33,960 bases of DNA from positions 1 to 33,960 of the forward strand of contig JAFWGJ010000098.1 of assembly GCA_017512405.1 (NCBI GenBank). The letters are read 5' to 3'. Made by a program: the position numbers and the translations under genes. Shown here in pieces: positions 9,699 through 28,800 of the stretch (the first letter of the stretch is position 1; every line of letters starts with the position of its first letter). The stretch comes from a bacterium (GTDB lineage Bacteria > Cyanobacteriota > Vampirovibrionia > Gastranaerophilales > Gastranaerophilaceae). The notes beneath the pieces are model-generated. The model was not told the DNA's origin, did not search any database, and saw nothing but the letters and a program-made list of their open reading frames with translations.

Positions 9699-10133
9699 AT
9701 GAAGAAAATAGTGTTGTCTTTGTTTATTTGCTTAGCTTTTACGACATCAGTATTTGCAGAAGATGAAGATTATAGTTATCAAAATCGCATGCCATTTTAT
9801 GGTAATTATCATCAATATGGCGGAAAGGTTATTCAAATGTTTGAAGGTCCGCCTTCACCTGATAATAAGCATCCGGTGGGAATATACAGCAATATACCAC
9901 TTAGTCCATATGGAAATATGTACGGTTCAATGCCTCCAATGTACGGTAATAAACCTCCTAAGATGTATGGTAACAAGCCACCAAAAGGTATTTATGGTAA
10001 TCATCCTCCTATGTATGGTTCAATGCCTCCAATGTACGGTAATAAACCTCCAAGAATGTATGGAAACAAACCTCCAAGGAGTATGTATGGCAACAGACCG
10101 CCTATGTACGGTCAAATGCCTCCAAGGCATTAA
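9699..10133 (+). CDS. Secreted Tyr/Pro-rich repeat protein (MYGxxPP repeats)
   Basis: A 144-aa protein with a clear Sec signal peptide (MKKIVLSLFICLAFTTSVFA, cleavage before EDED). The mature part has a short acidic, Tyr-rich segment, then from residue ~74 to the end a run of short units of the form (M/I)YG-(N/S/Q)-x-PP with one or two basic linker residues. No cysteine follows the signal region and no enzyme motif is seen. An extracellular, periplasmic or wall-associated structural role is plausible, for instance as a disordered matrix protein, but nothing shows it. AAAGGA at 9687-9692 supports the start. The last 32 nt overlap the convergent PHP gene. I do not recognise the family. Confidence 0.82.
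   Translation: MKKIVLSLFICLAFTTSVFAEDEDYSYQNRMPFYGNYHQYGGKVIQMFEGPPSPDNKHPVGIYSNIPLSPYGNMYGSMPPMYGNKPPKMYGNKPPKGIYGNHPPMYGSMPPMYGNKPPRMYGNKPPRSMYGNRPPMYGQMPPRH
9918..10130 (+). repeat. Nested tandem repeat: 93-nt unit made of ~7-aa subunits
   Basis: Two 93-nt (31-codon) units, 9918-10010 and 10011-10103, and the start of a third at 10104 lie head to tail. Each unit has four subunits of 7, 8, 9 and 7 residues, beginning MYGSMPP and MYGNKPP. The copies are near identical at the 5' half (AATGCCTCCAATGTACGG in both) and diverge by K/R and H/R changes in the 3' half, so unit duplication is recent relative to the original heptad expansion. Confidence 0.9.
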
Positions 10134-17997: not shown

Positions 17998-20184
17998 ATG
18001 AGAATATTCGAGGTTAAAAATAACCTGGTAAAGATTTTTTATGAAACAGGTGACAACCTGTTTTTATCGGGTTTTGTTATGATAAAAGACAGTCGTGAGT
18101 CCTATATCGGACAAATTATGCATCTTGAATCAAGCAAACACGGTAATGTTGCTATTGCAAAAATAATTTTTAACGTTACGGAAGATGGTGTTATAACTAC
18201 ATATTCAGGAACAATTCCGGCAATTAACAGTGCTATTTCAGTTGTAAAATCATTGGACTTTTTAAAACTTATACAGGGGCAAAACCCTATTTTAATCGGT
18301 GAATTTATAGAAAATGACCTGCTTGTTTCCTTAGATAAGAGCTTGTTAGAAAATAAACTTGTTATTTGCTCCGAAAATCAAGAAAATTCTGATTTAATGA
18401 TAAAAACGCTTAATCGTCAAATTAAGAATTATGGCAAAAAAACTGTAATTCTTGATACTGACGGTGAAAGTATATTTGACAAAAATTCTCTTGTGATGGG
18501 TGATAATTTTCGATTACCTATAAATAATCAAATTATAAATTTTATATACGAGAATGGTTTGGAATATAAAAGTGCAAGAAGCAAAGCTATTTTGCAAGAA
18601 ACTTTTTTGGAAATTAATTATTACCTTTCAAGCCTTGAAGAACCTTATATTCCTGTAAACAAATTTATAGATATCCTTGAAAAACAATATAATGAATCAA
18701 AATTACCGGAGCTTGTCCTTTTAAAAAATGTTCTGGTTAAATATAACGATGCCGGTATTTTTGCAAGAAATATAATGGAATATAAAAATCTGTTTGATTC
18801 TTTATTAAATAATCAAACAACCGTAATAGATATTTCAAAAGTTGATGAAGTATTTCAAAGAGAAGTAATTTCGTATGTATATAGTGTTATAAATGATATT
18901 TCAGAAGAATACTATGTTTTTGTAAAACTATCAAACGGAAATTCAGATAAAAAACTTTTAAAACAAATTTTTTCCAATAAAAAAGCATATACAACTATAA
19001 ATTGTTCCTATTTATACAAATACCTTACCGAATTGAAGAAAATCTCCAAAGATTTAATTCTATTTGCTCCGTTGTTACAGCAACAGGATTTCGCAAGTTA
19101 CAACACATTCCTGTCAACTTTGGGCAGAACTGAATTTATTGTATACGGTCAATCTACACAATTTATGCCATTGATAGTAAAACTTTCCGAACGGGCAAAA
19201 ATAATGAGCGTTGCGCCGCAAACAACAATAACGCCTGAGGACGCTCAAAGAATGGTTCAGAAACAATTAAAAGAACAACAGCAAAAATATCAAGCAGAGA
19301 AGATACAGGAAGAAGCATATCAGCAACAGCAGCAGTTGTCACAACAAATGTTACAGCAGCAGATGTCACAGATGGTATATCCTCAAATGATGCCGCTGCA
19401 AGCACCACCTCAAATATTTTATCCGCAGCAACCTCCGGTATATCCTAATTTGCAGATGTTTGCACCAAATCCATATATGAGTATGCAAACTCCTTACATG
19501 CAACCACAATATACGCAGCCGCAACAGGGATATGTACCTCAACCGTTTGCTACACCGCCATCTCAGCCTGTTTCTAACTCAAATGTTCAAACTCAGCAAG
19601 TACCTCAACAAGCTCCTCAGGAAGCTGTACCTCCTATATTTAAATCAATAGAACCACAAGAAATGCCTGTTGAAGATGTTGTTGAGCCAAAGCAAAATTC
19701 TGAAATTATTGATGTAGGAGATATAGAACCTTCTGAACAATTAACGGAACAAGATTTAGATTTAATTCAGGAGGTTGATATTTATGAAAATCAAGAACCT
19801 GAAATTATAGAAGAGGAAGAGTCTGTTTCTGAACAAGGAAATGCTCAGGAAGAAGATGATTCTTATCTTGATGAAATTCATCCTAATGAAACAGATATGC
19901 AAAAGCAGGAAGAAGATTCAGAAGAAGATATAAAAACAAAGTATAATATAACTGAGGAGAGTTTAAAAGAGCCTGAAACAGTTCCTGTTTATCCTGCAAA
20001 TACAGGTTTAAGAACAGATATAATTTTCGAAAAAGGAGATTTGGTCGTTCATGATAAATTTGGTAATGGCCGAATTGAGAAAATAATTAATTATGGTAGT
20101 AAAAAGCTTTGTTCGGTGTATTTTGAAGGTGTAGGCAGAAGACTTTTAGATCCTTCACTTTCTGAAATTAAAAAAGCAAATTAA
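17998..20184 (+). CDS. HerA-like pseudo-ATPase with Q/P-rich linker and UvrD/PcrA-type Tudor-like tail
   Basis: A 728-aa protein I cannot place in a named family. Residues ~1-90 resemble a HAS-barrel. The following core has the order of a HerA/VirB4-like ATPase: LENKLVICSENQENSDLMIKT at the P-loop position, TVILDTDGES where HerA has VLDPHGEY, TVIDISKVDEVFQREVISYVY near 275, and FIVYGQSTQFMPLIVKL at the SQRP-like sensor. The Walker A lacks the GxGKS/T, so ATP binding is doubtful. Residues ~405-540 are Gln/Pro/Met-rich and disordered, ~540-675 highly acidic. The last ~50 (GDLVVHDKFGNGRIEKI...VYFEGVGRRLLDPSL) match the C-terminal Tudor-like domain of UvrD/PcrA, which contacts RNA polymerase. It is first in an operon with an MCE gene and upp. 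Confidence 0.7.
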   Translation: MRIFEVKNNLVKIFYETGDNLFLSGFVMIKDSRESYIGQIMHLESSKHGNVAIAKIIFNVTEDGVITTYSGTIPAINSAISVVKSLDFLKLIQGQNPILIGEFIENDLLVSLDKSLLENKLVICSENQENSDLMIKTLNRQIKNYGKKTVILDTDGESIFDKNSLVMGDNFRLPINNQIINFIYENGLEYKSARSKAILQETFLEINYYLSSLEEPYIPVNKFIDILEKQYNESKLPELVLLKNVLVKYNDAGIFARNIMEYKNLFDSLLNNQTTVIDISKVDEVFQREVISYVYSVINDISEEYYVFVKLSNGNSDKKLLKQIFSNKKAYTTINCSYLYKYLTELKKISKDLILFAPLLQQQDFASYNTFLSTLGRTEFIVYGQSTQFMPLIVKLSERAKIMSVAPQTTITPEDAQRMVQKQLKEQQQKYQAEKIQEEAYQQQQQLSQQMLQQQMSQMVYPQMMPLQAPPQIFYPQQPPVYPNLQMFAPNPYMSMQTPYMQPQYTQPQQGYVPQPFATPPSQPVSNSNVQTQQVPQQAPQEAVPPIFKSIEPQEMPVEDVVEPKQNSEIIDVGDIEPSEQLTEQDLDLIQEVDIYENQEPEIIEEEESVSEQGNAQEEDDSYLDEIHPNETDMQKQEEDSEEDIKTKYNITEESLKEPETVPVYPANTGLRTDIIFEKGDLVVHDKFGNGRIEKIINYGSKKLCSVYFEGVGRRLLDPSLSEIKKAN

Positions 20185-20196
20185 TTCGGATAAAAT

Positions 20197-20808
20197 ATGC
20201 AACAATTAAAATCAAAAATTAAATTATATAAACAAATGGCTCGGTTCATTGAACTTTCAATTTGGTTTTTGATTCTTCTTTTTATATTTGGAATTTTTGC
20301 TGCATATAATTTATATTGTGAAAAAAATTATAGTCGTTATCAAATTTTTTTACAGGATATAGACGGAATTATTGTTGGTTCACCGGTAAAAATAATGGGT
20401 ATCCAAGTAGGTTATGTAAAAAATATAAAATTTGTTAATGATATGGTTTTTGTTGATTTTATTATAAATAAAGAGGGTGTAGAAATTCCAAAGGGTTCTA
20501 AAATAACAGTAGAATTTTCAGGGTTGGGAGGTTCTAAATCGCTTGAAGTATATGCACCAAAAGAAAAATATGACAGTGATTTGCCGCCGATTAATGTTCA
20601 ACAGCCAAGAAGATTAGGAGCTTCGGTCAGTCTGTTATATCAAATGTTTAAAAAGATAGGTGATATTATATATCGTTGTACATATTTTTCACAATCATTA
20701 GAGTTTGATTCTTTAAAGAAAACAGATTTGAAAATGAATAGTCATAAAGAAACGCAAATTTTAATAGAAGCGGATAAATGGTTAGATAAGTATAATAACA
20801 AAAAGTGA
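20197..20808 (+). CDS. MCE/MlaD-domain protein
   Basis: A 203-aa inner-membrane-anchored protein with one transmembrane helix (residues ~18-41, LSIWFLILLFIFGIFAAYNLY) and a periplasmic MCE domain at ~46-115. The core MlaD signature is present: DIDGIIVGSPVKIMGIQVGYVKNI, then VDFIINKEGVEIPKGSKITVEFSGLGGSKSLEV. MCE proteins form hexameric rings that carry lipids between inner and outer membranes, usually with an MlaE permease and MlaF ATPase; neither is here. The C-terminal ~80 residues have no helical MCE tail of the long Mce type. It starts 12 nt after the HerA-like gene, and its stop overlaps the ribosome site of upp. Confidence 0.88.
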   Translation: MQQLKSKIKLYKQMARFIELSIWFLILLFIFGIFAAYNLYCEKNYSRYQIFLQDIDGIIVGSPVKIMGIQVGYVKNIKFVNDMVFVDFIINKEGVEIPKGSKITVEFSGLGGSKSLEVYAPKEKYDSDLPPINVQQPRRLGASVSLLYQMFKKIGDIIYRCTYFSQSLEFDSLKKTDLKMNSHKETQILIEADKWLDKYNNKK

Positions 20809-20819
20809 GGTATAAAAAG

Positions 20820-21470
20820 ATGAATAAAGATATGGTAAGGGTTATAGAAAATCCTGTAATTTTCCAAAATTTATGTACTATGCGTAATAAAAATACTGAT
20901 AGTCAAGGTGTTAGAATTGCAACAAGAAAAATTACAAGAGTTCTATTGTACGAAGCATCAAAAAATTTGCCGCTTGTCGAAAAAGAAATAGAAACTCCTA
21001 TAACAAAATCAAAATTTAAAACAATAGAAGATGATATAAATATTATTATTTCGCCTATACTTCGTGCAGGACTTATTTTTACTGATGAAGCAATAGATAT
21101 TCTGCCGCAAGCCTGCATAAGACACATTGGAATGTATAGAGATGAAAAGACTTTAAAACCGGTTTGGTATTACAATAAAGTCCCAATGGAAGCTCCTAAT
21201 CCTGAAAAATTTTATATTTATATAACGGATCCAATGCTTGCAACAGGGAACTCTTTAATAGAAGCAATAAGGCTTTATGCGGATAAAAATATTCCTATAT
21301 CCCATATAAAATGTATTTGTATAATGGCTGCACCAGAGGGTATAGAGAATATTCAAAAAGCTTTTCCTGAGGTAGAAATTATAACCGCAACAATAGATGA
21401 AGGTTTAAATGAAAAAGGTTATATTGTTCCGGGTATGGGTGATGCAGGCGACAGAATATTTAATACATAA
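20820..21470 (+). CDS. upp: Uracil phosphoribosyltransferase
   Basis: Upp makes UMP from uracil and PRPP. Markers are LLYEASKNLPL, SPILRAGLIFTDEAIDILP and RHIGMYRDE. The PRPP loop is YITDPMLATGNSLIEAI, and the C-terminal uracil pocket YIVPGMGDAGDR ends the protein. I start it at ATG 20820 (216 aa): the GTG at 20805 is part of the GTGAGG ribosome site that spans the stop of the MCE gene. With uridine phosphorylase at 4623 the window carries a full uridine-to-UMP salvage route. A terminator follows directly. Confidence 0.94.
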   Translation: MNKDMVRVIENPVIFQNLCTMRNKNTDSQGVRIATRKITRVLLYEASKNLPLVEKEIETPITKSKFKTIEDDINIIISPILRAGLIFTDEAIDILPQACIRHIGMYRDEKTLKPVWYYNKVPMEAPNPEKFYIYITDPMLATGNSLIEAIRLYADKNIPISHIKCICIMAAPEGIENIQKAFPEVEIITATIDEGLNEKGYIVPGMGDAGDRIFNT

Positions 21471-26488: not shown

Positions 26489-27694
26489 ATGATTATCAAT
26501 AATTACAAGAGTATTGTACAGCCTAATTTTACGGCAAATGTTATGCCTAAAAATTGTGCTGAATATATAGATAATAAACTTAAATCTGCAAAAACAGCAG
26601 ATATTTTCTGTCATAATTCAAGTGATGAGGATACTTTTAACAGTGCAAAGGCAATGTATTCCTACCTCGAATCTCAGGGGGTAAAATCAAGAATTATCGT
26701 TTCTAACGGTAAAGAATGTTACGATTACAATACAAACAAATACAATATTATACAAGCTGACGAAGTTAACGAAAACACTAAAAAAGCTGACATAGCGCTT
26801 TGTGTTGATTTCAGTGCCGCAAGCCGTGCGGTTCCTAATGTTTTAAAATATATTAACAGTTATGGTGCCAATGTTGTAGGTTTTGACCACCACAATAATT
26901 CTGATAAAATTACACCAAATTATAATCAAATTACACAATCTTATGCAAAAAATCAGGATTTACCGACTCTTGATGCCAAAAACTTTTACATTGATTCAAG
27001 CGCAAAATCAAATTGTGCAATTATATCAAGGTTTTTTGATGCAATAGGTCATAAAATTAATCGTGAAGAAGGTCGTTCGCTTCTTGCAGGTATGATTGAT
27101 GATACTTCAAAAGATGGTTTTACACGCTTTTCAGAGTCAGGAAAAATTGAAGTTTCAGAAAGAATAAATGATAACGGTAATACTAAAACTGTTATGAGTA
27201 ATGTTTTATCTCAATTGAATGTTTTTGATAAATTGGATGTTCTAAAACATTTAAGTAATAAAACAAAATTAACGGATAAAGAAATCAAATTCCAAAATAC
27301 ATTAATAGAACGCACACAATACTCTAAAAACGGAAAATTTGCTTATTTAGAAATTCAACAAGGCGACAAAACTTGGGAAGATTTAGGAAGAGATAATTTA
27401 AAAACAGAAACTGTTTTAAACAATTATCGAAAAGAAATGCTTAGAAATAAAAATTTAGAAGCCGTTGCGGTATTTTATCCTACAAATTTAAATAATGCTT
27501 ATAAAATGAGTATTCTGACCAAAAAAGATTACGCAAAACAAATTATAAATGAAATTAAGTCAACGACTTATCCTGATTTAGTTGCAGGAGGTCATGATGA
27601 CAGAAGCGGCGGAACTTTAAGTTCCTCAGATAAAACGGATTGTCATAATTGGGTAAATTTGTTTGTTAATGCTGCCGACAAAATTTTGCACTAA
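26489..27694 (+). CDS. DHH-family phosphoesterase
   Basis: A 401-aa protein of the DHH/DHHA1 superfamily (RecJ, NrnA and cyclic-dinucleotide phosphodiesterases). The metal site is complete: HNSSDEDTFNS (Asp46, Asp48), CVDFSAASRA (Asp107), GFDHHNN (Asp133-His134-His135) and GMIDDT (Asp204-Asp205). The C-terminal DHHA1 domain ends with GGHDDRSGGTL, a variant of GGGHxxAAG. Substrate could be nano-RNA, pAp or a cyclic dinucleotide. The first 22 residues are a polar extension with NFTANVMPK, like the start of the M2/M3 peptidase at 1124. An in-frame TAA directly before ATG 26489 fixes this as the earliest start; the ribosome site is weak. It overlaps the convergent gene by 4 nt. Confidence 0.86.
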   Translation: MIINNYKSIVQPNFTANVMPKNCAEYIDNKLKSAKTADIFCHNSSDEDTFNSAKAMYSYLESQGVKSRIIVSNGKECYDYNTNKYNIIQADEVNENTKKADIALCVDFSAASRAVPNVLKYINSYGANVVGFDHHNNSDKITPNYNQITQSYAKNQDLPTLDAKNFYIDSSAKSNCAIISRFFDAIGHKINREEGRSLLAGMIDDTSKDGFTRFSESGKIEVSERINDNGNTKTVMSNVLSQLNVFDKLDVLKHLSNKTKLTDKEIKFQNTLIERTQYSKNGKFAYLEIQQGDKTWEDLGRDNLKTETVLNNYRKEMLRNKNLEAVAVFYPTNLNNAYKMSILTKKDYAKQIINEIKSTTYPDLVAGGHDDRSGGTLSSSDKTDCHNWVNLFVNAADKILH

Positions 27695-28800
27695 TTTCTG
27701 TTGAGACATTTTTTTATAAATTTTGCAATTCCGGAATTTAAATTTTTGTTTATAACTTTTACAATGTCTTTATTTTCAATGTCAGTATATTCGGAATAAA
27801 GGTTTTTATCTTCGTCATTATTTACAAATACTTTCCACATACCGGAAACTTGTTTTCTAAAATATTTTGAGCCCATTGATGTGAAATCCGCATCTTTAAT
27901 AAAATATTCTATTGTAAATGTTAAAGCATTTTCAGACATTTTATAAGCATTAAAATCATCTTTTATGTTAATTGGCTTTTGATAGAATATTAAATCCGGC
28001 TTAAAAGCATGCAAACAAGCCAGTTCACCTGTTTTTCTATCTATCCCGTCTATGATTTTTAAGTTAAATCCGTTGAAAAATTCCAAATTTTTCTTCATTT
28101 TTTCTTCATCAACAGGTTCATTTTCAAGCAGAGTATTTGGGACAATAATTATGGGAAACAGTTTAAAATCTTTATCAAAATATAAAATGTTATATAGTCC
28201 GATAAACTCTGTATTTTTAACATCAGAACAAATAAATGCCGTTCTGATTTGTTTATCGGATTTTCTTATTCTTTTAAGGTTTTTAATGTAATTGTTCTTT
28301 GCCTTTATTTCATTTGTTTTACAAAAAAATAAATATTTGATTGATAAAAAAATATTTTTACTTGTTATAAAATATTCAAAAAAGTTCTTAAATTTTTCGT
28401 TGATATTATTAAGAGTTTCATTTAAAGGTATTTGAATTAATTTCTCAATTTTAACATTTTTTTTGACATAATAATTACTTTTTAGATATTTTTTTGTGTC
28501 TTCAAATAAAATACCTGTATCTAAAATAACATTAAAATTTAAAGCTCTTAAAGCAAGAGGTTTATATACATTAAATCCTTTATAATCGTAGGATTTGTCT
28601 TCTGTAATTCTTTTGTCGCTTATACCAACAATATTCAAATATTTTTTAATGTCATAATTGTCAATAACAGCATCTAAAAAGACTCCCATACCAAATAAAA
28701 TGATTTTTTTATCAGCATATTTTTCTTTAAGAATTTCTAATTTTTTTTCAAAATTCAAAGATTTTAAATAATCAACATAAGAAAGATATTCTTCATTCAT
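27691..28800 (-). CDS. Unknown protein of the glf cluster, Rossmann-like N-terminus
   Basis: A 369-aa protein of no recognised family. Residues ~28-65 read KKIILFGMGVFLDAVIDNY...VGISDKR, a Rossmann-type nucleotide-binding start. Residues 150-175 are Lys-rich. From ~187 a second part (RTAFICSDVKNTEFIGLYNILY...FKLFPIIIVPN) leads to LHAFKPDLIFYQKP, which recalls the N-terminal domain of CDP-glycerol glycerophosphotransferase-like proteins, where a similar 'PD-(I/L)-V/I-F-x-Q-x-P' line occurs. No metal site or membrane helix is seen. Its start overlaps glf by 8 nt, so it is in the same operon and most likely acts in polymer synthesis or modification. Confidence 0.62.
   Translation of the reverse strand: MNEEYLSYVDYLKSLNFEKKLEILKEKYADKKIILFGMGVFLDAVIDNYDIKKYLNIVGISDKRITEDKSYDYKGFNVYKPLALRALNFNVILDTGILFEDTKKYLKSNYYVKKNVKIEKLIQIPLNETLNNINEKFKNFFEYFITSKNIFLSIKYLFFCKTNEIKAKNNYIKNLKRIRKSDKQIRTAFICSDVKNTEFIGLYNILYFDKDFKLFPIIIVPNTLLENEPVDEEKMKKNLEFFNGFNLKIIDGIDRKTGELACLHAFKPDLIFYQKPINIKDDFNAYKMSENALTFTIEYFIKDADFTSMGSKYFRKQVSGMWKVFVNNDEDKNLYSEYTDIENKDIVKVINKNLNSGIAKFIKKCLNRN

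Follow-up and report, generated by a model that had tools for sequence, protein, structure and literature searches.

A HerA-like pseudo-ATPase carrying a UvrD/PcrA-type Tudor tail in the Gastranaerophilales

HerA is a hexameric DNA translocase, represented by the Sulfolobus protein (PDB 4d2i) and by the HerAs of bacterial defence (8ziq/8zis). The SF1 helicases PcrA and UvrD possess a C-terminal Tudor domain (PF21196; 5dma, 6yi2, 9dqs), which in PcrA terminates a long disordered linker and binds a beta-hairpin with the sequence [VIL]DxxTGE[VIL][VILT] (i.e., the helicase interaction motif) that is present both in UvrB and in RpoB, where the SI1 insert carries it (PMC8318588). Mutation of H681, W684, K712 or L714 of PcrA costs binding to RNA polymerase (RNAP) (PMC5397179). 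Motif-less P-loop domains that are retained as binding modules have been described in the defence proteins DndH and PglZ; according to the parts of those reports considered here, these inactive domains are SF2-helicase second domains or STAND-type domains, unlike the HerA-type domain of this study, and the HerA/FtsK domain of the same systems is not described as inactive (PMC10853773, PMC12839542). Our searches of the literature on HerA together with Gastranaerophilales, Tudor or inactive HerA found nothing describing the architecture reported below, nor any clearly motif-less HerA that is near-universal in an order and maintained there by strong selection.

The window, which is the whole stretch of 33,960 nucleotides that was analysed, has a GC content of 31% and lies in a genome of 1.93 Mb in 161 contigs. 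The gene under study occupies positions 17998..20184 of the forward strand and encodes a 728-aa protein consisting of a HerA-like pseudo-ATPase, a flexible linker and a UvrD-type Tudor tail. The open reading frame, its ATG and its length are exactly those of the initial annotation, and the anatomy proposed there is correct. The start codon is also correct, as the same Met opens the homologues with the pattern MxIxExKNN, and the sequence AAGGA sits immediately 5' of the ATG. The window protein alone retrieved little from Pfam and NCBIfam and had no useful Pfam score. The domain matches of this protein and its family are far beyond chance.

The HerA-like domain (residues 1-404; 17998..19209, forward strand) begins with a small N-terminal beta domain (residues ~1-84), which is followed by an alpha/beta core. 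The AlphaFold2 model of residues 1-404 had a pLDDT of 89.4 and a pTM of 0.87, and the best 50 listed Foldseek matches of this model in the PDB were all HerA-family or HerA-complex entries, with E-values down to 1.9e-16 and TM-scores, normalised by the query, of ~0.6-0.75. A profile of 51 aligned homologues matched Sulfolobus HerA 4d2i (E = 6e-7) over a region covering the P-loop and the "DfnGEF" strands, and it matched the defence HerA 8ziq weakly, the "IIDLSGIP" strand included. In addition, 16 of the 51 family members matched the HerA central domain PF01935 (best E = 2.2e-9). The sequence profile and the fold together therefore establish the HerA assignment, so that the similarity expected for the N-terminal part from the initial annotation was indeed found. 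What the protein shares with HerA are the fold, the order of the elements, the N-terminal beta domain and the "D.nGE" and "IDLS" strands. The IDIS sequence that had been singled out in the initial annotation (residues 277-280; 18826..18837, forward strand) is the counterpart of the latter strand, as it aligns with "IIDLSGIP" of 8ziq, and its S280 is almost invariant across the homologue alignment. D153 and G384 are invariant among the 51 homologues, and their roles, judged from this conservation, are probably structural. Outgroup HerAs of the class were scored weakly by the family profile (best, 20.8 bits), and none of them was distinct by score, so that no particular intact HerA of the class could be singled out as the ancestor.

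Compared to HerA, the window protein is shorter, has no Walker A motif and has eroded Walker B and sensor segments. At the P-loop position it reads C124-S-E-N-Q-E-N-S-D132 (residues 124-132; 18367..18393, forward strand), without GK[S/T], as had been read from this sequence before. The question of whether relatives keep or lose Walker A received a uniform answer: GxxGxGK[S/T] was found in 0 of 51 homologues, and residue 126 was always Asp (29 homologues), Glu (16) or Asn (6). Such residues at position 126 should disfavour phosphate binding. The acidic pair of Walker B (DE) is not conserved either, with [DE]E present in the segment 303-315 of only 11/51 homologues. The Walker B and sensor segments vary within the family and hold no conserved motif, and the "SQ-like sensor" of the initial annotation was consequently dropped, while the designation HerA-type pseudo-ATPase was retained on the basis of the profile, PF01935, the AlphaFold2 model, Foldseek and the absent P-loop. 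Loss of these motifs suggests that the HerA-like body has probably lost both ATP binding and ATP hydrolysis.

Pseudo-enzymes are frequently found paired with active paralogues, and the protein could in that case be a subunit, with a regulatory or structural task, of a heteromeric ring whose active member is HerA or a different FtsK-like ATPase, which is akin to the earlier suggestion that it regulates a real HerA partner. The genome surrounding the window, however, had no DUF87 match, and a clear intact HerA was identified in only 3 of 58 genomes of the order (G021, G037 and G047), one of them adjoining a SIR2-like gene. These results rule out an obligate HerA partner and leave the heteromeric ring largely refuted and very improbable. 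Nor was a NurA, SIR2 or DUF4297 partner seen among the neighbours in the window and related loci, which is another difference from the known HerA systems. The intact HerA of G047 is the one that adjoins the SIR2-like gene (L066:77-2798), and by reading it resembles a SIR2-HerA defence pair.

The HerA-like body is followed by two additions that HerA lacks, a linker and a Tudor tail. The flexible linker (residues 405-674; 19210..20019, forward strand) is Q/P-rich and then acidic, in agreement with the spacer of the initial annotation, and in 54 homologues it has a median length of ~281 aa and a D+E content of 31%. The tail (residues 675-728; 20020..20181, forward strand) is of the UvrD/PcrA type, as had been proposed. 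All 39 tails of the family set matched PF21196 (best E = 1.1e-8), the window tail by itself scoring 19.6 bits, which is under the cut-off of 23.9, and a profile of the tails matched 9dqs (E = 3.8e-8) as well as 7egs, 6yi2, 4c2t and 5dma, which are solved UvrD/PcrA tails. A 1385-aa homologue likewise has the Tudor domain at its end. This domain thus belongs to the same sequence family as the PcrA/UvrD tails, shares their contact residues and, like the tail of PcrA, follows a long disordered linker, but the body to which it is joined is HerA-like and not an SF1 helicase.

The residues H685, F688, R715 and L717 of the window protein correspond to PcrA H681, W684, K712 and L714, respectively; the correspondence for Lys and Leu was taken from the profile alignment and that for His and the aromatic residue from the conserved H..[FYW]G pattern. 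Among the 39 tails, His is found at the first of these positions in 37, while Tyr/Phe, Arg/Lys and Leu occupy the other three in all 39, with the contact lysine of PcrA replaced by arginine in 34. The UvrDs of the same order end differently: at the position of PcrA L714, most of their tails (loci L237-L255 and L165) have Met or Val, and they end in "GKKAMDA" (i.e., "KKAMDA"), whereas the pseudo-HerA tail ends in "RRLLDP", similar to the one outgroup UvrD examined ("GKRLLDP"). In a small tree of tails, 17 UvrD tails of the order formed a separate clade (support 0.96), and the single outgroup UvrD tail clustered with the pseudo-HerA tails, with which it has "RLLDP" in common. With 60 residues and a single outgroup sequence behind it, this grouping has a weak basis and serves as a lead.

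The host order comprises gut bacteria related to cyanobacteria, in which the protein is near-universal. Of 58 Gastranaerophilales genomes, 56 contained the HerA-like part, the exceptions being G006, which is 75% complete and had no match, and G026, which matched solely via its UvrD tail. In a sample of 146 genomes of the class there were 51 matches, all of them in the family of the window, and one member of that family (G143, 99% complete) had no match. In a sample of the phylum, the family profile retrieved nothing convincing outside the window's family. The dN/dS values, which are rough because dS is near saturation, were 0.05-0.09 for the body, 0.03-0.19 for the tail and 0.08-0.5 for the linker, the last being relaxed. 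The protein evolves under strong purifying selection (dN/dS ~0.05), by which a pseudogene is ruled out. The missing catalytic motifs would suit a decaying, functionless remnant or a chance resemblance to HerA, but this explanation is refuted by selection and order-wide retention, along with the confident fold and the significant profile match, and its probability is close to nil.

The initial annotation had also suggested a polymerase-tethered scaffold, whose tail would bind RNAP as in PcrA/UvrD and whose dead HerA body would act in transcription-coupled repair or conflict resolution. That the tail is homologous to an RNAP-binding domain and largely keeps its contact positions favours this suggestion, as does the finding that full UvrD makes additional contacts with RNAP (PMC8318588). 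The docking half of the suggestion is weakened, however, as the SI1-borne motif bound by the PcrA tail is absent from the RpoBs of the order: the strict helicase interaction motif was found in 0 of 31, and these proteins have no insert at the site where B. subtilis RpoB carries it. The RpoB of the window's own genome (1104 aa) is continuous through VGRYKMNKKLNLN...DDIDHLGNRR, without an SI1-like insert. The one TGE sequence that matched loosely, VNRDTGEI, is situated in the N-terminal region of RpoB, outside any such insert. Contact with RNAP at a place other than an SI1-type motif is possible, and overall an RNAP tether appears somewhat unlikely.

Most UvrBs of the order, on the other hand, do have the motif. 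That of the own genome carries IDATTGEVI, the strict motif is present in 17 of 30 UvrBs, and most of the others have near variants (e.g., VSGEIL and INPTTGEI). Scanning the whole genome with the back-translated pattern returned three places, including UvrB. The second is an open reading frame of the window (27691-28800) with the near-match IDRKTGELA, whose last position is broken, and the third, on contig C7, holds no strict motif in open frames of at least 150 aa. The open reading frame at 27691-28800 encodes a 369-aa protein without a Pfam match and lies beside a UDP-galactopyranose mutase gene. Given that the motif is absent from the RpoBs and present in UvrB, UvrB is the best-supported target of the tail, on an argument drawn from sequence.

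In the window's genus, genes for RibF and a formyltransferase lie divergently upstream of the pseudo-HerA gene, and those for a 203-aa MlaD-domain protein and uracil phosphoribosyltransferase lie downstream (window 20197-21470); the seven nearest relatives were examined, and in these the latter pair likewise adjoins the pseudo-HerA gene. Other families within the order have a divergent comM-like gene of the Mg-chelatase type beside pseudo-HerA (L042:1229-2779, L048:6025-7575 and L052:6411-7964). A conserved gene of 151-162 aa is found directly upstream of pseudo-HerA in several families (L038:3577-4038, L042:2889-3377, L052:5744-6202 and others), and often sits, as a 152-aa gene, between comM and pseudo-HerA. 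The AlphaFold2 model of this 152-aa neighbour (pLDDT 86) has a long N-terminal helix and a beta sheet and had no PDB match below an E-value of 0.1, so it gives no clue to function. Elsewhere in the window (9699-10133), a 144-aa protein without a Pfam match has an N-terminal signal-like stretch and MYGNKPP-type repeats. Phage origin and membership in an anti-phage defence system were rejected, as there was no phage match and no PADLOC model match.

The association with comM in several other families would point to DNA uptake or recombination, and the protein might accordingly be an ATP-independent DNA-binding or nucleoid/competence factor, with a HerA ring on DNA and a tail that adds non-specific affinity, which is consistent with the weak DNA binding by the tail of E. 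coli UvrD (PMC7585439). The comM link is missing in the window's own genus, however, and the linker is strongly acidic, and this role is distinctly unlikely.

The reading that we favour, tentatively and at somewhat less than an even chance, is that of an ATP-independent scaffold or clamp whose Tudor tail docks on UvrB. The HerA-family body, without binding or hydrolysing ATP, would keep DNA or partner proteins in place where repair occurs, while the tail, on its long flexible acidic linker, would dock onto the helicase interaction motif, a beta-hairpin that has TGE at the tip. The target that fits best in this lineage would be UvrB of nucleotide excision repair, where the site of UvrD would be shared or competed for. 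We infer UvrB binding, and likewise the oligomeric state, DNA contact and repair role of the pseudo-HerA, from the features described above. Against a UvrB tether are the gene neighbours, which vary from family to family and among which no gene of excision repair was seen, and the arginine that replaces the usual contact lysine in 34 of 39 tails; the Tudor surface might instead bind other partners or DNA. A bolder and unlikely extension is that this HerA scaffold, which would be order-specific, near-universal and free of ATP, captured the ancestral docking tail of UvrD and now serves Gastranaerophilales as their main hub of excision repair, docked on UvrB, the UvrD tail of the order having drifted.

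The protein is a new combination of two well-studied modules. It also leads to the prediction that, given the lack of a docking motif in the polymerase, a Tudor domain known for binding RNAP should favour UvrB in this order. This has a bearing on PcrA/UvrD-type recruitment in lineages whose RpoB is without the motif-bearing insert.
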